Assembly: GCF_026341125.1 (NCBI RefSeq)
Contig: NZ_JAPEOR010000002.1
Span: forward strand, 868,001-932,000
DNA from: Streptomyces sp. NBC_01142
GTDB lineage: Bacteria; Actinomycetota; Actinomycetes; Streptomycetales; Streptomycetaceae
Direction: 5' to 3'
Length of the DNA stretch: 64,000 bases
Of the stretch, positions 1-49,270 are shown in pieces (position 1 is the stretch's first letter; every line of letters starts with the position of its first letter). A program made the translations under genes and the position numbers. Below the pieces are notes generated by a model. It was given only the letters and a program-made list of their open reading frames with translations, was not told the origin of the DNA and made no database searches.

Positions 1-885
1 CTGATGTTCGCCGTCACCCAGGGCGCGCAGGCCGGCTGGGGCAGCGTGCAGGTGCTGGGGCCGCTGACGGCCGGGGCCGTACTGCTGGTGGCCTTCTGGG
101 CGGTGGAGCGACGCAGCGACCACCCTGTTCTCGATCTCACGCTGGTGCGCGACCGCCGGTTCATGGGCTGGACGCTGGGCGCGATGTCCACGGCGGGCGG
201 GGCGACCGGCATCCTGGTCTTCCTCCCGACCTATCTTCAGGGCGCGGGCGGACTCTCGGCCGGTGACGCGGGTCTGATCATGCTGATGACGACCGCGCCG
301 GTCTTCGCGTTCCCCTCGGTCGGCGGCTGGCTGGTGGGCCGCGGCCTCCCGGCCCGCCATCTGGTCGCCGGTGCGCTGCTGCTCTCCGCGGCGGGCAACC
401 TCTGGCTGGCCCTGGCGCTCGCTCCGGACGCGGGCCCGGCCCGGCTGGCGACTCCGCTGCTGCTGATCGGTATCGCCAACGGCCTGGTCCTGGGCCAGAT
501 CGACGCCCAGGCGATGAGCATCGTCGAACCGGAGCGCGTGGGCATGGCATCGGGCCTCCTCAACACGGCGAGGGGCGGCACGGGCGCACTGGTCCTGGCC
601 GGCTTCGGAGCGGCCCTGATCACCCTGGTGGAGTCCCGGGTGGGCGACCGCGCGTCGGCCGGCGAGGTGACGGCGGGCCGGCACCCCGACCTGGCGGCCG
701 AGTTCACCCAGGCCTGGCAGATCACGGTGGGCACGGTGGCGGTGGTCCTGATGCTGGCGGCGATCCTGGTCCGCCACCTGCTGCGGCCGCGCACCGTCCC
801 CGTCGCGGTGCCGGCCCCCGCCGAGCCCGCCCCGGTGCAGCACGCCGCCGAGCCCGCCCCGGTGCAGCACGCCGACGCGGTCTGA
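1..885 (+). CDS. MFS drug-exporter-type transporter, C-terminal part (5' end outside window)
   Basis: The reading frame is open from the first base, so the gene starts upstream and about 294 C-terminal residues are visible. They form at least seven hydrophobic segments typical of the last half of a 14-helix major facilitator (DHA2/EmrB-QacA type), with a helix-rich core and a hydrophilic tail. The tail ends in two copies of a short Pro/Ala repeat (EPAPVQHA), which is low-complexity and probably not structural. Membrane export of drugs or small metabolites by proton antiport is the family role; the substrate cannot be read from the sequence. It converges on gltD, and a strong hairpin lies just downstream. 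Confidence 0.8.
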   Translation: MMFAVTQGAQAGWGSVQVLGPLTAGAVLLVAFWAVERRSDHPVLDLTLVRDRRFMGWTLGAMSTAGGATGILVFLPTYLQGAGGLSAGDAGLIMLMTTAPVFAFPSVGGWLVGRGLPARHLVAGALLLSAAGNLWLALALAPDAGPARLATPLLLIGIANGLVLGQIDAQAMSIVEPERVGMASGLLNTARGGTGALVLAGFGAALITLVESRVGDRASAGEVTAGRHPDLAAEFTQAWQITVGTVAVVLMLAAILVRHLLRPRTVPVAVPAPAEPAPVQHAAEPAPVQHADAV

Positions 886-928
886 GCGCGACAGCCGGCC
901 GGACCGGCGAAACGAGCGGAAACGCAGT

Positions 929-972
929 GCGGCGCCTGCCCAGTGTCCGGTCGGGGACAGGGCAGGCGCCGC
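929..972. terminator. Bidirectional hairpin terminator between the MFS gene and gltD
   Basis: A 13-bp perfect stem (929-941 with 960-972) encloses a second 5-bp stem (944-948 with 955-959) and a 6-nt loop. It sits between convergent stop codons, so it can serve both genes. There is no U-tract, as is common in Streptomyces. Confidence 0.75.
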
Positions 973-1047
973 GTTGCCGGGGCCTCGGGGGTGTACCCCC
1001 CGGAAGACCCGGCCCGTACGCCGTTGTACGGGACGTCTGGGGAGAGA

Positions 1048-2500
1048 TCAGACCGTCAGCGCGCGGTCCGTGGGACGGATCGGAGCCGGCAGCTCGCTCG
1101 CGCCGGTCAGATAGCGGTCCACACCGCGTGCCGCCGAGCGGCCCTCGGCGATCGCCCACACGATCAGTGACTGGCCGCGGCCCGCGTCACCGGCAACGTA
1201 CACGCCGTCGACGTTCGTCGCGAACTCCGCGTCCCGCGCCACGTTGCCGCGCTCGTCGAGCTCCAGGCCGAACTGCTGGACCAGGCCGTTCTCCTGGTCC
1301 GTGCCGGTGAAGCCCATCGCCAGGGTGACCAGCTGCGCGGGGATCTTCCGCTCGGTGCCGGCCTTCTGCTCCAGCTTGCCGCCCTTGAACTCCACCTCGA
1401 CGAGGTGCAGGTACTGGACGTTGCCGTCCTCGTCGCCCTCGAAGTGGGTGGTGGAGACGGAGTAGACCCGCTCGCCGCCCTCCTCGTGCGCCGAGGTGAC
1501 CTTGTAGAGCATCGGGAAGGTCGGCCAGGGCTGACCGGCCGAGCGCTCCTCGCCCGGACGCGGCATGATCTCCAGCTGGGTGACCGAGGCCGCTCCCTGC
1601 CGGTGCGCCGTGCCCACGCAGTCCGCGCCCGTGTCGCCGCCGCCGATGACGACGACGTGCTTGCCCTCCGCGGTGATCGGCGGAGCGACGAAGTCGCCCT
1701 CGACCACCTTGTTGGCGAGCGGCAGGTACTCCATCGCGAAGTGGATGCCGTTCAGCTCACGCCCGGGGGCGGGCAGGTCGCGCGAGACCGTGGCGCCCGC
1801 CGCGATGACCACCGCGTCGTACCGCCTGCGCAGCTTCGCCGCGTCGATGTCGCGGCCGATCTCGACCTCCGTACGGAACTTGGTGCCCTCCGCGCGCATC
1901 TGCTCGATACGGCGGTTGATGTGCACCTTCTCCATCTTGAACTCGGGGATGCCGTACCGGAGAAGCCCTCCGATGCGGTCCGCGCGCTCGTAGACGGCGA
2001 CCGTGTGGCCCGCCCGGGTCAGCTGCTGGGCGGCGGCCAGACCGGCCGGGCCCGAGCCGATGACCGCGACCGTCTTGCCGGAAAGCCGCTCCGGCGGCTG
2101 CGGGGTCACGTCGCCGCTGTCCCACGCCTTGTCGATGATCGAGACTTCGACGTTCTTGATGGTGACGGCCGGCTGGTTGATGCCGAGCACGCAGGCGGCC
2201 TCGCACGGAGCGGGGCACAGACGGCCCGTGAACTCCGGGAAGTTGTTGGTCGCGTGCAGCCGCTCGCTCGCCGCCGACCAGTCCTCGCGGTAGGCGTAGT
2301 CGTTCCACTCGGGGATGAGGTTCCCGAGCGGACAGCCGTTGTGGCAGAACGGGATTCCGCAGTCCATGCAGCGGCCGGCCTGCTTGCTGATGATCGGCAG
2401 CAGGGAGCCCGGAACGTAGACCTCGTTCCAGTCCTTCAGCCGCTCGCCCACCGGACGGGTCTCGGCGACCTCGCGTCCGTTGGTGAGAAAGCCCTTGGGG

Positions 2501-2508
<8 letters not shown>
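1048..2508 (-). CDS. gltD: Glutamate synthase (NADPH) small subunit
   Basis: 486 residues, the usual length for the GltD beta subunit, which takes electrons from NADPH and passes them through FAD and iron-sulfur centres to the large subunit. A cysteine-rich N-terminal segment (Cys47, 50, 55 and 59, CMDC..C..GC) fits the [4Fe-4S] ligands. A Rossmann FAD motif ([10 protein letters not shown]) lies near residue 150 and an NAD(P)H motif (GGGDTGADC) near residue 290. The start ATG at 2508 overlaps the end of gltB by 8 bp, so the two are translationally coupled and made together. The product works in the cytoplasm in ammonium assimilation (GS-GOGAT cycle). Confidence 0.97.
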
Positions 2509-7060
<4,552 letters not shown>

Positions 7061-39466: not shown

Positions 39467-39584
39467 CTCCGGGGAGCGAGAGGCACAGCACCTGGGGCTC
39501 GTGCAGCCGCACCCTGGGGCCCGTGCAGCCGCCGCACCGCCCGGGGGCCGGGGGCGGCCCGCCCTCGCTACCGCGGCTGGAGGT

Positions 39585-39622
39585 GGGATTTGAGGAACAT
39601 CGGAACGGAAACTGGCGCTGAG
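39585..39622 (+). repeat. Left terminal inverted repeat (Tn3-type, 38 bp)
   Basis: Reads inward from GGGATTTGAGG, then a 24-base block shared exactly with the right end, then CGCTGAG. Differs from the right end at positions 4, 5, 32 and 35. Confidence 0.8.
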
Positions 39623-39727
39623 CCCGTATCGCCGCTGGTCGGGGGCTGACGGGCCGTCGGCGCCGGGGCGGTCGTGGTGTTGACTGAACTAGATTCCGAA
39701 TAATCGCAGGTCAAATGCGGTTTCTGC

Positions 39728-39733
39728 TAGCTT
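39728..39733 (+). promoter_or_regulatory. -10 element of a probable leaderless promoter for the first recombinase
   Basis: TAGCTT lies 6 nt before the ATG at 39740, and no ribosome site is visible, so the transcript probably starts at the ATG. The -35 box is weak; TTGACT at 39680 is too far from this -10. Confidence 0.4.
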
Positions 39734-39739
39734 CCGGTC

Positions 39740-40996
39740 ATGCTTGAGACGGGCGGTCCCTCACGGGATCTGATCAGCTTCGCGCTACCCCAGACCGGTG
39801 CCTTGGTGGAGGTGGCGAATCCGGCCCAGCCCTATGTGCTGCTGGACGCTGGCGGGGTGGTGGTGGATCCGGTGTCTGCGTTCTTCGCCGAGTTGCAGGC
39901 GTGTTCGCGACTGCCGTCGACGATCCGCTCGTACGGAATGGATCTGCTGCGGTGGTGGCGATTCCTGCATGCCGTCGGGGTGGAGTGGCATCGGGCCACC
40001 CGGCTGGAGGCGCGGGACTTCGCCCGCTGGATGGCCATCGCGCCGAAGCCTGTGAGGCCGCACTGGCGCGGCCGGGCGGCCGGCGCCACGGCGCGGGCCG
40101 GAGTCGGTTCATCGGCTGGGGTGCCGAACACCGTGACGGGGCGGGCGGGGCCGGGGCCGATGTTCGCGGCGACGACGCGGGCGCACTACGAGACCGTGTT
40201 GCGGTCGTTCTACGACTTCCACCTGGAAACGGGTACCGGTCCGATCATCAACCCGTTCCCGACCCGCCGGGAGCGTCGTCGGCTGCCCGCGAGTGCTGGC
40301 AGGCCGATCCGGTCCGCGCCTGGTGGTCGGTATCAGCCGTCGGTGCCGGTGAGGGTCCCAGGCCGGATCCCGGACGCGCGATTCGACGAGTTGTTCGCGG
40401 CGCTGCGTCACCACCGGGACCGAGCGCTGTTGGCGTTCTGGGTCTCCAACGGGGTACGGGCGGAGGAGTTGCTGACGTGCCGGCAGCGGGATGCACTGCC
40501 GGGCGAGCAGCTGCTGGGGGTGGTGCGGAAGGGGACGCGGGCATATCAGCAGGTGCCGTCGGCGGCGGACGCATTCGTGTGGTTGCGCCTGTATCAGGAG
40601 GAGGCATGGCGGGCGGGGGTACCGCGAGGGCCGGGTCGATGGCTGTGGTGGACGCTGCGCCCGCCGTTTCGGCCACTGACCTACCACGCGGCACGGGCGA
40701 TGTTCGGGAGAGCCAACCGGTTGCTGGGGTCGAACTGGACGTTGCACGACCTGCGCAGGACGGCGGCGTACCGGATGGCGCGGGATCCGAAGCTGGCGCT
40801 GACGGACGTCCAGTGGGTCTTGGGGCACGCGCACCTGAGCACCACCCAGATCTACCTGCCCGCGGGCCGGGAGGAGATCATCGACGCCGTGCGGGCCCAC
40901 CACGAGCGGGCCGGCCGTGAGGCCCAGGTGGTGGCGGTCCCGGCCGCCGGCTACCGGCCGGACTCACTGGACGAGTTGTTTGGGAGGAACAGGTGA
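39740..40996 (+). CDS. Tyrosine recombinase (integrase), first of a tandem pair
   Basis: 418 residues from ATG 39740. The N-terminal SAM-like helical DNA-binding domain is at about residues 45-165 (ELQACSRLPSTIRSYGMDLLRWWRFL). The catalytic domain has the first Arg in VSNGVRAEELL near 238, HxxR in LHDLRRTAAYRM near 334, and the final His and Tyr in LGHAHLSTTQIYL near 357-367. All active-site residues are seen. The stop overlaps the next start (GTGA), as in tandem recombinase operons such as Tn554 tnpA-tnpB. Confidence 0.9.
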   Translation: MLETGGPSRDLISFALPQTGALVEVANPAQPYVLLDAGGVVVDPVSAFFAELQACSRLPSTIRSYGMDLLRWWRFLHAVGVEWHRATRLEARDFARWMAIAPKPVRPHWRGRAAGATARAGVGSSAGVPNTVTGRAGPGPMFAATTRAHYETVLRSFYDFHLETGTGPIINPFPTRRERRRLPASAGRPIRSAPGGRYQPSVPVRVPGRIPDARFDELFAALRHHRDRALLAFWVSNGVRAEELLTCRQRDALPGEQLLGVVRKGTRAYQQVPSAADAFVWLRLYQEEAWRAGVPRGPGRWLWWTLRPPFRPLTYHAARAMFGRANRLLGSNWTLHDLRRTAAYRMARDPKLALTDVQWVLGHAHLSTTQIYLPAGREEIIDAVRAHHERAGREAQVVAVPAAGYRPDSLDELFGRNR

Positions 40997-43434
40997 GGTC
41001 GAGGGTTCGCGACACCACCGGGGCCGCCGCCGTCAGCCCGTCCGAGCTGCCACCGGCACCACGGGCGTCCGGAGGACTGCTGGAGCAGGCCCGGTCCCGA
41101 TTCCCGGCCAGGGTGGCCGGGCACCGGTGGCCCATGACGGATACACCGGCCGACGAAGTGCTCGCCGCGCTGGAGCGGCCTCCCTTCCGGGCGGACACGG
41201 CGCACACCCGGTGGCACCGGCGGTCAGGGGCCCGCGCGCTGTTGGCCTGGCTGTCGGGCTTCGAAGGGGCGAGCTGGCAGGAGCGATGGGAGGCGTCCCC
41301 GGCCGCCGGATGCCCAAAGCTCTGGCGGCGGGAGGCAGAGACGTGGGTGGACACCGCCGCGGTGCGCGGGACCAACATCCAGGCCGGCCTGCGGATGCTG
41401 GCCGCCGCCGACGTGATCCGGCTGGCGCTGCCGTGGCAGATGGAACTCAACAGCCCCCACGTGCGCACCGTGGTCGAGGAGTGCCGCGACCCCGAGGGCT
41501 TCGCCCGTCTGAGCGAGGTTGTCGGCGACGAACGGTGGGCGTCGACGGGCGGGGGCCGGGCCCGCCGCGCGCTGACCCGGATCGTACTGGCCAAGGGCGG
41601 CGGGCTGGCGGACATCACCGTCGGCGACGCGCTCGAATACGACGCCGGCCTCCGCGCGAGCGCTCACGGCATCAGCAGCGGCGGCACCCTCTACTACGCG
41701 TGGCTGCGCGAGCTGGGACACCTGCCAGCCGACGCCCCGACCACCTTGCGGTTCCTGGAACAGGTCACCGGCCAGCTCACCTGCGCCCAGCTCGTCGACC
41801 GCCACCCCGTCGCCTCCCCGGGGATCAGGGCCCTGCTCATCGACTACCTCTAAGAACGCCGCCCCCGCCTGGACTACTCCACCCTCGACAACCTCGCCCG
41901 ACACCTGACCAGGAACTTCTGGTCCGACATCGAACGACACCACCCCGGCATCGACACCCTCCGCCTGCCAGCCGAGGCCGTCACCGGCTGGAAGGAACGC
42001 CTGCGCACCCGCGTCCAACGACGTCGACGCCCGGACGGCTCCATCGAGGAAACCGTCGTGGAACGCGCCGACCGCACGATGGTCTTCATCTACGTCCGCG
42101 CCTTCTACCTGGACATCGCCCGCTGGGCGACCGAGGAACCCGCGCGCTGGGGACCGTGGGTGGCACCCTGCCCAATCAGGGTCGCCGAGACCGCCAACCG
42201 CAAGCGCGTCACCCGGACCAAGGCCCGCATGGACCAGCGCACCCGCGAACGCCTACCGGTGCTGGAGGCCTTCGCCCGGGCTGCCGCCGACCACCACCGC
42301 CTGCGCGCGGCCCACCTGGAGATCGCCCGCGCCACCCCGCCCGGCGCCCGCTTCACGCTCGACGGCGCCCCCTACATCCGGGGCGCGAACCCGGTCGGCG
42401 CTGCCGCACGCGACGAGCAAGGCTGCCTCGTGCACCTCGACCGCGCCGAGCACCGCGCCTTCTGGGCCTGGGCGACGGTCGAGTTCCTGCGCCACACCGG
42501 CGCCCGCGTGGAGGAGATGCTGGAGACCACCCACCACGCGATGATCCAGTACCGGCTACCCACCACCGGCGAGATCGTCCCCCTCCTGCAGATCGCCCCC
42601 TCCAAGAACGACGTCGAGCGCGTCCTGCTCGTGAGCCCCGAGCTCGCCGACGTCCTGGCCACGATCATCCGCCGCGCCCGCGACCCCAAGACCGGCCTCA
42701 TCCCCCTGGTCACCCGCTACGACAGCGAAGAACGCCAGCGGGACCCGCCCGCACCCCTGCTCTTCCAGTACAACCGCGGCGGCGAACCCGCCGTCATCCA
42801 CTCCCAGACCATCCGGGAGATCCTCAAGGAGACCGTCTCCTTCATGCAGCTGACCGACGCCGCCGGCCGCCCGCTGGTATTCACCCCGCAGGACTTCCGA
42901 CGGATGTTCATCACCGACGCCATCCGCACCGGCCTGCCACCCCACATCGCCCAGGTCATCGCCGGCCACGCCAACATCAACACCACCATGGGCTACAACG
43001 CCGTGTACCCCACCGAGACCATCGAAGCCCACCGCGCCTTCATCGCCCGCCGCCGCACCCTGCGCCCAACTCAGGAGTACCGCACCCCGACCGACGCCGA
43101 GTGGGAGGACTTCCTCGGCCACTTCGAACGCCGCAAGCTGTCCGTCGGCACCTGCGCCCGCGCCTACGGCACCGCCTGCATCCACGAACACGCCTGCGTC
43201 CGCTGCTCACTCCTACGCCCCGATCCCGCTCAGCGCGGCCGGCTGGTGGAGATCCGCGACAACCTGCTCGACCGGATCGCCGAGGCTGAGCGGGAGGGCT
43301 GGCTCGGCGAGATCGAGGGGCTCAGGGTCAGCCTCGCCGGCGCCGAATCCAAGATCGGCCAGATCGATGCGGCGGCATCGGGCGGGTCTGTCCTGCTCGG
43401 TCTGCCAACGCCGAGAGCGGACCGGCAAGGGTGA
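40993..43434 (+). pseudogene. Large tyrosine recombinase interrupted by one in-frame stop
   Basis: GTG 40993 overlaps the previous stop and has GGGAGGA upstream. The frame continues to 43434 (about 813 residues) except for a single TAA at 41851-41853, after 286 codons; no other frame change is needed. Before the stop is an N-terminal DNA-binding-like region; after it the sequence runs on (ERRPRLDYSTLDNLARHL...). The catalytic part has TGARVEEML, QDFRRMF (Gln in place of the first His) and AGHANINTTMGY, then a C-terminal Cys/His cluster (CARAYGTACIHEHACVRC) like a zinc finger. Possibly a recent nonsense mutation or two separate polypeptides. An internal GTG (42058) could restart translation. 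Confidence 0.8.
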
Positions 43435-43467
43435 TCAGGCAACAGGTGGGGAAGAAGCGGCAGCCCC

Positions 43468-44337
43468 TCACTGGACCAGTTCGGTGTGCGGGTGGCCTCC
43501 GCTCGCCGGGCAGGCGTAGAGCTGGAGGTGATTGGCGTCCAGCACCGTGATCTCGGGCGGATTGGACCAACTGTCGTCGGATGCGCAGGGGACCCGGTCC
43601 TCGTGCGGGATCCAGCTCGTGCTGTTGCGGTGCCATTCGGACGAGGCGATGGTCAGCAGCGGCGTCATCGCGGTGCCGCAGGCCACACAGAACCGCGGGA
43701 CGGGGTCGGTGAGTCCCCAGGGGGCCCAGCCGCCGATCTTCCAGCCGGGGGCGTGGGACAGCGCGTGGTCATAGAGCTCCTGCGGGTCGGCGTCGTCGAC
43801 CACGATGCCCGCCGCCCGCCAGGGCGCGGGGTCCGTGATCTGCTGCTTCAACTCTGCGGGGAGTTCCAGGGAATCGGGGTACTCGGTGACCTGCTCCGGC
43901 GCGAGCACGCACGGCTCGGGCACGTAGAGGTCCTCGTCCGCGTCGAACAGCTCGGGTGGTGCGGCCAGCACGTCGGTGACGTCCGCGGCGGTCCGCCAGG
44001 ACAATTCGATCGGAATGCTTGAGTCCGGCGCGTGCTCCGAAGGGCACCACAGGACCTGCAGCAGGTCGGTCCGCCCGGGCGGTCGCAGCAGGGGTATGTC
44101 CCGCGTGTACAGCTGGGCCACGGGCACCAGGGGGTGGAGGCCTTCATGCTCGATGCGGCAGTACCGCCAGGGTTCCTGTGCGGGCCACAGCAGGGGCCCG
44201 CCGATCGAGCTGTCGTGCACCGTGGGAGAGCCGGGACGCGGGTGCAACCGCATCGCTGGGCGGGCCAGCGAGGCCAGCGCGGGGAAGACCGCGGCGATGT
44301 CGACCGGCCGCGGCGGGGTGGTACGTGTGCCGTTCAT
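43468..44337 (-). CDS. DUF1963/YwqG-like protein
   Basis: 289 residues from ATG 44337; no good ribosome site, so a later start is possible. Features of DUF1963 proteins: VPVAQLYTRDIPLLRPPGRTDLLQVLWCPSEH near residue 85, GWKIGGWAPWGLTDP near 205, and a CVACGTAMTPLLTIASSEWH block near 225 with a CxxC pair. The family is of unknown function, often cargo in polymorphic or mobile loci. It converges with the recombinase pseudogene (33 bp between stops). Confidence 0.75.
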   Translation of the reverse strand: MNGTRTTPPRPVDIAAVFPALASLARPAMRLHPRPGSPTVHDSSIGGPLLWPAQEPWRYCRIEHEGLHPLVPVAQLYTRDIPLLRPPGRTDLLQVLWCPSEHAPDSSIPIELSWRTAADVTDVLAAPPELFDADEDLYVPEPCVLAPEQVTEYPDSLELPAELKQQITDPAPWRAAGIVVDDADPQELYDHALSHAPGWKIGGWAPWGLTDPVPRFCVACGTAMTPLLTIASSEWHRNSTSWIPHEDRVPCASDDSWSNPPEITVLDANHLQLYACPASGGHPHTELVQ

Positions 44338-44611
44338 GGCGATGATCTTGCCAACACTCTCTGACAGCGGGCCTAACCCAACAGGACGAGCCGTCTTCCT
44401 GCGTGCGGCGCACTCCCTGCTGGCGCAAGGCGCAAAGCGGCACAACCGCCTATGCGCAACCGACCCCAGCCGTGTACGCACCAGAGTTCAGAGAAGTGAA
44501 GTCTTCCACAGATAACACCCCAATATCTCCGGTAGCTTGATCCGTCACCTGCGGTGACGTTCTCCGGCCGCTACGTGAAGCGGCCCTGCTATCTGCGGCC
44601 AGGGGGAAGCA

Positions 44612-45586
44612 GTGTCCACCGTCGTGCAACTGCCGACCGGGAAGGCGTTGACCGTCCGGGCGGCGGCCGACGTGTTCCTCGACTCGCTCGGCAACCCGAA
44701 CACGATCCGGAACTACGGGATCGGGGTGGGCAAGACCGCCGAGCGGATCGGCGAGGGCCGGCCGCTGGCGTCGGTCGCGGACGACGAGATCGGCGAGGCC
44801 CTCGAACTGCTCTGGGGCAGGGCGGCGGTCAACACCTGGAACTCCCGCCGGGCCGCGGTCCTGTCCTGGCTCGGCCGGTGCCGCGAGCGCGGCTACGAGG
44901 GCCCGGCGGTCTCGGCCTGGGCGAAGCGGCTGGCGGTGCCGGACTCCGGGACCTCGGCCCGCTCGAAGATGGCCATCGACCGGCTGATCGCCCGGCGCGA
45001 GGTCCACCTGCGGGAGAAGACGCTGTGGAGGATGCTCTACGAGACCTCCGGGCGGGCGGAGGAGATCCTGGGCGTCAACATCGAGGACCTGGACTTCGCC
45101 GGGCGCCGCTGCCAGGTGAAGGCGAAGGGCTCCCGGACCAAGGCCCGCCGCCGGAGCCAGGGCCGCGAGGACTTCGTGTTGGAGACGGTCTACTGGGACG
45201 CTGGCACCGCCCGGCTCCTTCCGCGCCTGCTGAAGGGCCGTACGCGCGGGCCGATGTTCGTCACCCACCGCCGTCCGGGGCCGGGCAAGGTCGTCAGCCC
45301 CCGCGACGTCTGCCCGGACACCGGCTTCGCCCGGCTGTCCTACGGGCAGGCCCGCGCCTTGCTCGACGAGTACACCGCTGTACGGGGGCCGGGCACCGGT
45401 TGGGACCTGCACGAGTACCGACATTCCTCCCTGACCCATCTCGGCGAGGCCGGGGCGAGCCTGCTGATGCTGATGGCGAAGTCCCGGCACAAGAAGCCGG
45501 AGAACGTCCGCCGCTACTTCAAGCCCTCCCCGGAGGCGATCGCTGAGCTCACCAGCCTGCTGGCCCCCGGTGACAGCAGGCGCTGA
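44612..45586 (+). CDS. Tyrosine recombinase, third
   Basis: 324 residues from GTG 44612 (GGGGGAAG upstream). N-terminal core-binding domain about 15-110; catalytic Arg in [12 protein letters not shown] near 149, [13 protein letters not shown] with HxxR near 269, and [14 protein letters not shown] with His and the nucleophile Tyr near 294-304. The Lys in the beta-hairpin ([10 protein letters not shown]) is present. This group is distinct from the first two and is transcribed alone. It may be the resolvase-like enzyme of the element or an unrelated passenger. Confidence 0.88.
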
Positions 45587-45644
45587 GTGCGGGAGCCGTT
45601 CTGTCCTGTTTCCTGTCTGCTTCGGTGTCCGTTCGGGCAGGGGA

Positions 45645-46754
45645 TCAGATGTCCAGTGAGAGTGCGTTTTTGGCGTGCGCGACGGATTCCTCCGAGGCGG
45701 GTCCGCCGGGGTTCTCGGTGGCAAGGGCCTGGTTGAGGATGACGAAGGGGCGCATCCGCCGCTCATAGCGGGCATACGCGGTGCGGTGGTCGCCGTTGGC
45801 CTGGGCTAGGCAGTCGGCCAGCACGTGGGCGCCCACGAGGGCCAGGCTGGTGCCCTGCCCGGAGAGGGGGGAAGGGCAGTAGCCGGCGTCTCCGAGCAGG
45901 GTCACCCGGCCCCGCGACCACTGGTCCATACGGATCTGGGCCATGGCGTCGCAGTAGAAGTCGGGTGCCTTCCGGGCGGCCTCGGCAAGGCGGGTCCCTT
46001 CCCACCGCATCGACGCGAGCTTGTCCACTACGAGCTGCCGCAGGGCGCCGCCGTCGCGGAGGTCGTGGGCGAGGGGGGCGGACTGGAAGCCGAAGGCGAT
46101 CCTGAGTTCGGTGTTGTCGCGTACGGGCATGATGCCGAAGCCCGTGTCGCCGTCCCGCAGCCACATCTGCCAGTCGTCCAGGGCGAGAAAGTTGTCCGCG
46201 CTGAAAACTGAGAGGTAGCTCCCGAGGTGGTGGGCGAAACGCTCCTCCGGACCGAAGGCCAGGCGCCGTACGGTGGAGTGGAGGCCGTCGGCCCCGACCA
46301 CGAGGTTGAAGGTGCGGGACGGTCTGTGCGCGAAGTCGACGCGCACACCGGTCTCACCCTCGTCGAGCGCGGTGATGCTGTCGCCGAAGAGGTGCTCGAC
46401 GCCTGCGCGCGTGTGCTCGTACACCATCCGTACCAGGTCCTCGCGCAGCACCTCGATGTCTTCGCTGTCGAGCCGACCGCTGCTGAAGGTCGCCTCGGTG
46501 GAGCGGTCGACCTCGTGGCCGTCGGGGGCGAGGATCGACATGCCGCGCATCCGGGTCCGTACACGGCTTGCCTGCTCCAGCAGGCCCATCCGCTCCACGA
46601 CTTCGAGCGCGACGCCGCGGATGTCCACGGCCTGGCCGCCGGGGCGTTGGCCTGGAGCACGTTCGACGACGGTGGGCGCGAAGCCGTGGCGGCGCAGCCA
46701 GTAGGCGAGGACGGGCCCGGCGATGCCGCCGCCGGAGATGAGTACGGTCTGCAT
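45645..46754 (-). CDS. FAD-dependent monooxygenase (PHBH/TetX-like fold)
   Basis: 369 residues from ATG 46754 with GGAGGA 7 nt upstream. The FAD motif GGGIAGPVLAYWLRRHGF is at residues 8-25, the mid-motif VVGADGLHSTVRR near 152, and the second FAD motif GDAGYCPSPLSGQGTSLALVGAHVLA near 290. Family members hydroxylate aromatic or polyketide substrates, including tetracycline or rifamycin inactivators; which substrate is unknown. Divergent from a GntR-TetR regulator with shared operator-like repeats, so induction by the substrate is likely. Confidence 0.88.
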   Translation of the reverse strand: MQTVLISGGGIAGPVLAYWLRRHGFAPTVVERAPGQRPGGQAVDIRGVALEVVERMGLLEQASRVRTRMRGMSILAPDGHEVDRSTEATFSSGRLDSEDIEVLREDLVRMVYEHTRAGVEHLFGDSITALDEGETGVRVDFAHRPSRTFNLVVGADGLHSTVRRLAFGPEERFAHHLGSYLSVFSADNFLALDDWQMWLRDGDTGFGIMPVRDNTELRIAFGFQSAPLAHDLRDGGALRQLVVDKLASMRWEGTRLAEAARKAPDFYCDAMAQIRMDQWSRGRVTLLGDAGYCPSPLSGQGTSLALVGAHVLADCLAQANGDHRTAYARYERRMRPFVILNQALATENPGGPASEESVAHAKNALSLDI

Positions 46755-46797
46755 GAGGAGTTCCTCCAGTGCTCTGTACGGTGTACGCGCGACTGAA

Positions 46798-46902
46798 CGT
46801 ACGTCGTACGCACAGACCCACTCAACTGGCCAAATGCGAGACGTGTACTAGGGCAGATGCCTTCCGTTCGGCGTTGCCGCTGCTACCCTCTGCACTAGTA
46901 CA
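46798..46902. promoter_or_regulatory. Divergent control region with inverted operator-like repeats and promoter
   Basis: TGTACTAG(G/T)GCAG occurs at 46844-46856 (plus strand) and inverted at 46890-46902, 12 of 13 identical. A third palindrome, CGTACG-T-CGTACG, is at 46798-46810. A -35/-10 pair for the regulator, TTGCCG (46874) and TAGTAC (46896), 16 bp apart, overlaps the second repeat. The repeats suit the GntR and/or TetR domain. Confidence 0.6.
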
Positions 46903-46922
46903 GGACAGGAAGGCGGCAGGAC

Positions 46923-47885
46923 GTGACGAAGACCACAGGCACAGCCGGTGATCCGCCCTATCTGCGCATCGTCGCCGTGATCCGGCGGCGCATCGCGGAC
47001 GGTGAACTCGCCCCAGGGGACCGGGTTGCCTCGACCCGACAGATCGCCGGGGAATGGGGCGTCGCGCTCGCCACCGCCACCAAGGCTCTGACCACCCTGC
47101 GTCTGGAGGGACTTGTCGAGGCCCGGCCCCGGATCGGCACGGTCGTCGCCGGAACCGCCCTCGCCGCGCCGGCCCGCAGGCGCACGTCACCCGCCCCGGA
47201 CCCCGAGCAGGAGCTGAGCCTCGACCGGATCGTCCGTACCGCCATCGAGATCGCTGACGCCGAAGGGCTCTCGGCGCTCTCCATGCGCGGCGTCGCGGCC
47301 CGGCTCGGCGTCGCGGCGATGTCGATCTACCGGTACGTCCCGAGCAAGGAAGACCTCGTCCTGCACATGGCCGACGCCGCGTTCGGCGAGGAGTCCTACC
47401 GTGCGGATGCCCCCGAGGGTTGGCGTACCCGCGTCGAGCTGGGCGCCCGGACCCTGTGGAGCCTGTACCGGAAGCACCCGTGGCTGGCCCAGCTCGGCTC
47501 CCTCACGCGCCCGTTGCTCGTACCCAATCTGATGGTCCACGGCGAGTGGGTGCTGGGCGCCCTCGACGGCCACGGCCTCGACCCCACGACGCTGTTCGAC
47601 ATCCATGTACTGATCTACAGCCATGTCCAGGGCCTGGCGGTGCACCTGGAGATGGAAGCGCACGCCGAAGCCGCCACGGGCCAGTCGGAAGACCAGTGGA
47701 TGGACAGCCGCGCCCCCGCCCTCCAAGAACTGGTGGAATCCGGCCGCTTCTCGACCTTCACCAAGGTGGTCGGAGCCTTCAAGGACGGCTACGACCTGCG
47801 TCTCGACGCGCTCTTCGAATTCGGCCTCAAGGCGCTCCTCGACGGCCTGACTTCCACCGTCGAACGTCAGGAAGCTGTCGCGTAG
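46923..47885 (+). CDS. GntR-TetR fusion transcriptional regulator
   Basis: 320 residues from GTG 46923. An N-terminal GntR-type winged helix at about residues 12-75 (YLRIVAVIRRRIADGELAPGDRVASTRQIAGEWGVALATATKALTTLRLEGLVEARPRIGTVV) is joined by a Pro/Ala linker to a TetR-type helix-turn-helix near 105-145 (MRGVAARLGVAAMSIYRYVPSKEDLV) and a TetR C-terminal ligand domain (TetR_C_1 type). Two DNA-binding domains in one chain could bridge the paired operator-like repeats. It probably represses the monooxygenase and itself until a ligand binds. Confidence 0.87.
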   Translation: MTKTTGTAGDPPYLRIVAVIRRRIADGELAPGDRVASTRQIAGEWGVALATATKALTTLRLEGLVEARPRIGTVVAGTALAAPARRRTSPAPDPEQELSLDRIVRTAIEIADAEGLSALSMRGVAARLGVAAMSIYRYVPSKEDLVLHMADAAFGEESYRADAPEGWRTRVELGARTLWSLYRKHPWLAQLGSLTRPLLVPNLMVHGEWVLGALDGHGLDPTTLFDIHVLIYSHVQGLAVHLEMEAHAEAATGQSEDQWMDSRAPALQELVESGRFSTFTKVVGAFKDGYDLRLDALFEFGLKALLDGLTSTVERQEAVA

Positions 47886-48009
47886 ATACATGAACAGGTT
47901 CAGCGAGGACCGGACCCACACGCCCCTTCCCGCTACGGGGCATCCGCCGGCGACGTGGCGGATACGACCAGAGATCACCCCGTTCATGGTCCCGGCGAGA
48001 ACAAGCGTT

Positions 48010-49119
48010 TCACTCCTCGTCGGTGGAATCCGGATTGCGCAGGGGCCGTAGGCCGCCAGGCAGGTTCGGGAGCTGGAAGGAGTACCGGCCGAGCATGTTG
48101 ATGTGATGGCGTACAAACGGCGAGAGGCGGGCCACGTCCTCGTCCCGGACCTCGAACCCGTCCGCGCGGAGCTGGGTGACGGCGGCGTCCACGTAGCGGG
48201 TGTTGAACAGCACGAGGGCGTTGAGGACCAAGCCGAGGGCGCCGATCTGGTCCTCCATGCCGTCCTCGTAGCGCTGGTAGAGCTGTCCGGCCTTGCCGTG
48301 GAAGATCTTCCGCGAGTGCGTGGCGGCCCTCCTGGAGGTTGGCCTGCACCTTGATCTGCCGCCGGTAGCCGGGCTCGTCCGCCAGGCGCAGGATGTGCAG
48401 GGTCTTGGCGATCCGCCCCTAGTGCGCGATCGCGTCCCCGAGCGGGGTCGGCCGCCCGTCACGGGACAGCATCCGGATGACGTCGTAGGCGCGGACGGCT
48501 CCGGTATGGATGGAGCCGATGATGATCCGCAGGATGTCCTCCCAATGGCGCTCGATACGAGCGAGGTCGACCCGGCCGCGGGCCGCGTCCTGGAACGCGC
48601 CATAGTCGGCGGCGCGGTCGATGCGCCACATCTTCTGGTCGGGCAAGTCGGCCAGCTGCGGCGCGTACGCGATTCCGGCGAGGGTGAGCAGGCCGAACAC
48701 GATGTCGCTGTCGCTCGCGGTGTCCGTGACGGACATCTCCGGGCGCTTGCCGCCCTCGCGGTCGTAGAGGACGTCCAGCACGTACAGCGAGTCGCGCGGG
48801 GTGCCGGCCACTACCTTGCCGCCGAGCCCGGCCGCCTGGTCGTTGATCATGTTGAGCCAGGTCGCCCCTCCCCGGCGGCCGAAGTACTTCGGGTTCGGCC
48901 GCGCGTCCACCGACGGCACCGGCACCACGAACCGCATCCCGTCCACCGAGGCGACCAGGCCCCGCCCCACGTCTGCGCGAGCGGGTTCGACGCCTGGGCG
49001 CCGATCAGCGCGGCGTTCGCGGCCGGGTAGGTCTCCAGCCGCAGGTAGGTCTGGTCGACGTGGGAGAGCCGGCCGTACTTCAGCGCGTCCAGGCCGCCGA
49101 TCACCGACTCGACCGGCAC
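48010..49119 (-). pseudogene. Truncated Tn3-family transposase (tnpA) with frameshifts and a stop
   Basis: The conserved Tn3 transposase C-terminal third can be followed in three pieces: SVIGGLDALKYGRLSH... to about 48965, then DGMRFVVPVPSVDARPNPKYF to the DSDIVFGLL and DSLYVLD segments, then to the stop at 48419, and finally EDQIGALGLVLNALVLFNTRYVDAA..LGRYSF to 48010. A 1-bp deletion near 48965, an in-frame TAG at 48419-48421 and a 2-bp deletion near 48320 all break it. The N-terminal two-thirds of the usual ~1,000 residues are missing. Inactive, and read away from the right repeat. Confidence 0.85.
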
Positions 49120-49209
49120 CCCGGACCTCCAAACAGTCGATCAATACGACTGCCGAAGGTTCTGGCACCACGGAACCCCAGGTCAAAGCCCTCTGGGCGG
49201 CCGACGGGG

Positions 49210-49247
49210 CTTAGCACCAGTTTCCGTTCCGATGTTCCTCAAGCCCC
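49210..49247 (-). repeat. Right terminal inverted repeat (Tn3-type, 38 bp)
   Basis: Reading inward on the minus strand it starts GGGGCTTGAGG and ends TGCTAAG. GGGG at the outer end and TAAG at the inner end match the Tn3 family pattern. The transposase remnant is just inside. Confidence 0.8.
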
Positions 49248-49270
49248 GAGGCGTGGGGGAGAAGCTCCCC

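Follow-up and report, generated by a model that had tools for sequence, protein, structure and literature searches.

A Tn4556-type Tn3 family transposon, probably defunct, with a nested Tn554-like element in Streptomyces sp. NBC_01142

Tn4556 of Streptomyces fradiae is a class II (Tn3 family) transposon that spans 6,625 bp; its left inverted repeat (IR-L) has a 1-bp mismatch, located at the 5' end. In its published description, the transposase gene tnpA (nucleotides 200-3184) reads inwards, while a resolvase of 324 amino acids with a PF00589 domain is encoded on the other strand (5445-6419), close to a proposed palindromic resolution site, res (6497-6527) (PMC6403206). A different type of mobile element was recognized in 2012 from pairs of short and abnormally long tyrosine recombinases (Famint36/41), which were assigned to actinobacterial Tn554-like elements lacking TnpC, with examples on pRHL2 and pSCP1 (Van Houdt 2012, PMC3414803). 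No report of the ends of this class was found in the available text of that paper or in the literature searched. In this study we analyzed a 64,000-nt stretch of the 10.1-Mb genome of Streptomyces sp. NBC_01142 (GCF_026341125.1, NZ_JAPEOR010000002.1, positions 868,001-932,000 of the forward strand; hereafter the window), in which Tn3-type terminal repeats enclose three tyrosine recombinase genes. We consider it highly probable that this module is a defunct transposon of the Tn4556 branch, inverted in the window and carrying a nested Tn554-like element.

The enclosed stretch of 9,663 bp is bounded by two 38-bp inverted repeats, located at 39585-39622 (+ strand; tnpR side, IR-R in Tn4556 terms) and 49210-49247 (- strand; tnpA side, IR-L). 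They are identical at 34 of 38 positions; when the window was base-shuffled three times, the left 38-mer matched at no more than 22/38 positions on the one strand searched. The repeats are flanked by GAGGT (39580-39584) and GAGGC (49248-49252), probably a target duplication in which one base has decayed. The repeats and flanks given in the original prediction were thus confirmed. A search with the 32-bp repeat core (up to three mismatches) showed that the pair is unique in the host genome. The genes on the left (lon and ybaK) and on the right (a membrane protein and an ABC permease), matched as proteins and named by us, were found adjacent to each other without any insert in 10 of the 11 fetched loci of the same genus. 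In the eleventh (L050) the right-hand genes were not found in the stretch examined, and a twelfth genome (G010) gave a weak match that was left outside the count. The 9,663-bp stretch is an insertion at an occupied site between two conserved neighbour genes.

To place the element among its relatives, the 32-bp core was searched, with the same tolerance, in 392 genomes of the genus. It was present in 26 of them, that is, in 25 besides the host, and a reversed control pattern gave no match in the same 392 genomes. Regions were fetched from 16 of the 25 genomes, the remaining nine being known as single matches only. Both ends, and hence complete elements, were found in nine of the 16 (L060-L065, L066 with L067, L068 and L069). 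Eight of these nine elements are flanked by exact 5-bp duplications, and in L063 the flanks agree at 4/5 positions, like those of the window copy. All nine contain a sequence 80-93% identical to the third recombinase of the window (in two pieces in L068), and in all nine tnpA is convergent with tnpR, although in some of them tnpA is broken or interrupted. In the aligned leaders of the relatives this recombinase gene starts ∼206 bp from one end, with a palindrome in front of it, and the genes in the cargo slot differ from element to element. The element at L060 is 6,626 bp long, encodes a TnpR of 324 amino acids, has ends that differ at the outermost base and has its tnpA start near one end. 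Because this layout matches that published for Tn4556, the window element was read as Tn4556-type and the orientation of its tnpA as normal; the latter had been thought unusual and possibly a sign of rearrangement.

The window copy shares with Tn4556 (i) 38-bp ends, (ii) a tnpA reading inwards from one end, (iii) at the opposite end, a tyrosine-type TnpR of 324 residues next to a putative palindromic res, and (iv) cargo between the two genes; a 5-bp duplication is described for Tn4556 (PMC6403206), and 4/5 flanking bases are equal in the window. It differs from Tn4556 in that its tnpA is a remnant and a second element lies between the end and res. The cargo is also different: a monooxygenase and a regulator in place of the methyltransferase and isoprenyl diphosphate transferase described for Tn4556 (PMC6403206).

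Between the repeats of the window copy we found three proteins with the Pfam domain Phage_integrase, a FAD_binding_3 monooxygenase, a GntR-TetR regulator and a broken Tn3 DDE transposase, in agreement with the contents listed originally, except that the second recombinase gene proved to be interrupted by a TAA codon (41851-41853). The third recombinase gene (44612-45586, + strand) has an intact frame and encodes a full-length TnpR of 324 amino acids, 290 of which are identical in the L060 protein. It is preceded by the second part of a Tn4556-type leader (44497-44611, + strand), which contains a palindromic res-like site (44506-44532) at the position of the proposed res of Tn4556; two of the nine arm pairs of this palindrome are broken. 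The tnpA remnant (48010-49119, - strand) retains its start and the Tn3 DDE domain and reads inwards from the end opposite tnpR. Its 5' region has lost ∼1.95 kb at 49106/49107 (1,947 bp relative to L060, 1,944 bp relative to L062). TBLASTN with an intact relative located frame changes near 48961-48967 and 48311-48315, and there is a TAG stop near 48419. By its sequence, the window copy is a defunct member of the Tn4556 branch whose transposase is predicted not to work.

The cargo slot, delimited against L062, extends over ∼45589-48008 between tnpR and tnpA and contains the FAD-dependent monooxygenase gene (PF01494; 45645-46754, - strand) and, divergent from it, the gene of the GntR-TetR fusion regulator (46923-47885, + strand). 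This pair (45645-47885) recurs as a unit, with 83% identity, on Streptomyces plasmids. On a plasmid of Streptomyces sp. NBC_00984 the 83%-identical stretch comprises the monooxygenase-regulator pair alone, and no transposon gene is annotated within 6 kb of it.

The other two recombinase genes belong to a separate unit. The first part of the leader (39623-39674, + strand), which was aligned to the leaders of 13 relatives and globally to three of them, loses its homology at ∼39674, and the homology restarts at 44497. With the intervening 39675-44496 removed, the leader measures 205 bases, compared with 206 in the three aligned relatives. The interval of 4.82 kb (+ strand) was identified as a Tn554-like actinobacterial element. 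Its insertion, at a point between the end repeat and res, was clean, with no loss of target DNA. The element starts with a 4-bp tag, TGGT (39675-39678), followed by the left end GTTGACTGAACTA (39679-39691), and terminates with the right end GAGTTCAGAGAAG (44484-44496). It encodes a short tyrosine recombinase of 418 amino acids (PF00589 and PF02899; 39740-40996, + strand), a long tyrosine recombinase (40993-43434, + strand), which is the one broken by the TAA codon, and a hypothetical passenger protein (43468-44337, - strand). The DUF1963-like label once proposed for the passenger gene was not supported: no Pfam match to DUF1963 was obtained at E values up to 1. No match to this gene was found at an E value of 1e-4 in loci L060-L163, while 48 plasmid records do match it.

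At the DNA level, the recombinase pair matches pRHL2, where two site-specific integrases are annotated, and the pRHL2 copy has nearly the same terminal sequences, agreeing with the end consensus of the class at 12/13 positions on the left and 11/13 on the right. In that copy (L161:1491-6600) an insertion of ISRhosp1 (IS3-like) lies between the left end and the first recombinase gene. Like the Famint36/41 elements, the nested element has adjacent short and abnormally long recombinases and no TnpC partner (PMC3414803). It is unlike the Famint36/41 examples in its stopped long recombinase, its hypothetical passenger and its use of a Tn3-family leader as the site. Its relation to Tn554 proper is taken from the account given in PMC3414803. 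The host genome also encodes a second short recombinase of the class (G000:C3:1572949-1574145), 42% identical.

Recombinase pairs of the same kind were found within tnpA in L072 and L066/L067, and downstream of tnpR in L073; such pairs were present in the fetched regions of 3 of 17 genomes (the 16 and the host). We considered res itself as the target of the nested element but did not adopt this view, as the insertion lies 9 bp outside the palindrome and these other copies are located in tnpA or downstream of tnpR. In genome G335, a separate insertion (L067:5254-11368) was observed in a Tn4556-type element, where it borders the res palindrome. It carries a gene for a 384-residue protein, which we assigned as tyrosine-recombinase-like, together with other genes, and its ends are unlike those of the Tn554-like class.

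These data bear on two other ways of reading a cluster of three recombinase genes inside largely intact Tn3-type ends. According to the first, tyrosine recombinases took over the function of the Tn3 transposase, and the whole 9.66-kb unit moves by site-specific recombination. The gene content fits this proposal, but one of the recombinases is the ordinary resolvase of the family and therefore replaced nothing, while the remaining pair is part of an element that sits within the leader and has ends of its own, the long recombinase being broken by TAA. Moreover, in the fetched relatives the recombinase pair is located elsewhere or was not found. We regard such a takeover as very improbable; the loss of mobility postulated in the original prediction stands, as the element has lost its own transposase, whereas the postulated replacement by tyrosine recombinases gives way to a native resolvase plus a nested element. 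According to the second, a RIT-like recombinase trio is framed by Tn3-type repeats through coincidence. The three genes do share one orientation, but the passenger gene and the res site lie between the third and the pair, and the third shares 80-93% identity with the resolvase of nine elements that have the same ends, eight of which carry no recombinase pair in the fetched stretch. A RIT consists of three adjacent co-operating recombinases, whereas the third recombinase here belongs to the Tn3 element. The relatives refute this reading, to which we assign next to no probability.

It had also been suggested that the element may be mobilized in trans, that is, that it is a non-autonomous unit still moved by another Tn3 transposase of the same cell. 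In favour of this, the two end repeats have stayed largely intact (34/38 between them), and a full-length Tn3 DDE domain is present once in the host genome, within a long frame of 1,030 residues (G000:C2:1837489-1838661). Eight resident Tn3 loci were compared with the Tn4556-type TnpA by TBLASTN. Two (L003 and L007) represent the remnant of the window itself, four (L001, L002, L004 and L006) are 22-23% identical to this protein, L005 is a 57% identical fragment on contig C13, and L008 gave no match. The first 18 of the 24 kb of C13 contain two further TnpA fragments (49% and 37% identical), but neither a TnpR match nor ends of this type (best 21/38). The single transposase that is complete in this host shares 22% identity with the Tn4556-type TnpA, and no Tn4556-type ends were detected within 9 mismatches around its gene (L079). 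Nor does the genome contain another copy of the ends at up to 3 mismatches. Since the complete resident transposase is only 22% identical and the nearest relatives are separate fragments with no such ends in the 18 kb of C13 examined, mobilization in trans looks unlikely, and we give this explanation a low probability, slightly above that of the takeover. Two observations were made alongside this comparison: scattered Tn3 transposase fragments, including the 57% identical one, occupy G000:C13:6429-14657, and a tyrosine recombinase 34% identical to TnpR is encoded close to the complete DDE domain on C2.

The reading as a defunct Tn4556-type transposon with a nested Tn554-like element suggests the following history. 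Judging from Tn4556 and from what is known of the Tn3 family, the element would once have used its own TnpA for replicative transposition, and cointegrates would have been resolved by the 324-residue tyrosine recombinase at the palindromic res beside one end; of this, the layout was observed directly. The monooxygenase and the divergent regulator were presumably carried in as cargo between tnpR and tnpA. The Tn554-like element entered the transposon 90 bp inwards of one end, immediately outside res, and no target DNA was lost. The tnpA gene lost its ∼1.95 kb and acquired the frameshifts and the stop, and the nested long recombinase gained its stop codon. With a broken tnpA and an interrupted long recombinase, neither element should now be able to move by itself. 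Three points weigh against this reading: the flanking 5-mers differ at one base (4/5 equal), Tn4556 itself was compared by way of its published layout, and the intergenic stretch looked too diverged in the three relatives inspected for a base-by-base junction. The comparison with empty loci supported an occupied site, as flank genes are adjacent in 10/11 cases, but an exact junction could not be placed.

The nested insertion allowed us to examine the ends of the Tn554-like class. A scan of species genomes with the short recombinase as query yielded 309 related stretches, of which 78 loci were kept (79 with the window). The ends of the class, as read from relatives, are RTTRACYGAACTA ... TAGTTCRGAGAAG, with variants, such as TAGTTC, AAGTTC and TGGTTC before RGAGAA at the right end. 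Both were found by pattern in 51 of the 79 loci, window included, and other Actinobacteria carry them too. For the remaining 28 loci, an end was diverged, undetected or absent from the contig, and chance matches of the right-end pattern may account for a few of the 51. In Streptomyces sp. GQFP, two copies at different sites of one chromosome (L134 and L135) share 99.98% identity across 5,931 bp, with divergence starting directly after GAGAAG. The near-identity of these 5.9-kb copies is evidence of recent movement. Their four left-end bases are equal, which fits inheritance and a common donor site alike.

Comparison of the flanks points to a likely landing rule, in which the element inserts after a G, with four foreign bases at its left end and no loss of target sequence. 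The comparison used 45 copies flanked by 90 or more bases on each side (window apart); trimming four bases from the left and joining the flanks restored a conserved protein motif in 17 of them. The restored targets fall into five families, which from their motifs we take to be Ku (4), CpaF-like (4), HEHAC recombinase (5), endonuclease-VII-like (2) and ligase-like (2) proteins. Other left trims between 0 and 10 bases restored no target motif, and a 4-base trim on the right instead fitted 4 of the 17 equally well. Of the 46 copies flanked by 30 or more bases, 44 have a G directly before the insertion, and one has equal 4-mers on the left and right. The window copy agrees with the rule, having G, then TGGT on the left and TGAA on the right.

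The five target motifs were picked after inspection of the 4-base joins, so copies obeying another rule may have been missed. Against the rule stand four copies (L087, L095, L138 and L157) in which a recombinase motif is present on one flank and is not continued on the other; these may represent nested neighbours, rearrangements or wrongly picked right ends. The rule thus holds in 17 of the 21 copies with a recognized motif half, and these motifs recognized no target in the remaining copies. Two Tn554-like copies (L116 and L108) occupy the same codons, immediately ahead of ANAALI, in two distinct Tn3 tnpA genes; L108 seems to lie on the same contig as L072.

In the copies that fit the rule, the four foreign bases lie on the left and the target's own four bases on the right, a pattern that suggests retention of a single strand exchange, with replication to follow. 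If both strands were exchanged between different spacers, both arrangements should occur; the fitting copies show only one. The nested element may accordingly be pictured as recombining at TAGTTCRGAGAAG-NNNN-GTTGACYGAACTA, with one strand exchange retained. We see an about even chance that the class as a whole integrates in this strand-biased way with a 4-bp spacer after a G in the target, always with the foreign bases on the left, and that its targets are highly conserved codons in genes of DNA metabolism and of mobile elements (Ku, DNA-ligase-like, CpaF-like, HEHAC of long recombinases of its own kind, Tn3 tnpA, endonuclease-VII-like), the window copy, beside a Tn3 res, being off that list.

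A 6-bp footprint, similar in kind, is described for the strand-biased circularizing elements and Tn554 (PMC10214605). The footprint of the nested element comprises 4 bp on the left with target bases on the right, whereas that of the strand-biased elements, as described there, comprises 6 bp with the sides reversed. Unlike those elements and Tn554, the nested element has no Tfp or Srap/TnpC partner that we could see (PMC10214605).

The puzzling combination of Tn3 ends and tyrosine recombinases in this genome can therefore be read as two known kinds of transposon, one inside the other. It serves as a warning that a tyrosine recombinase within a Tn3 element of Streptomyces can be its normal resolvase. 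At the same time, nested insertions provided the ends and a candidate landing rule for a class that was described in 2012 by its genes. These should make Tn554-like elements of this class easier to annotate and offer a testable mechanism; the landing rule is the part worth following.

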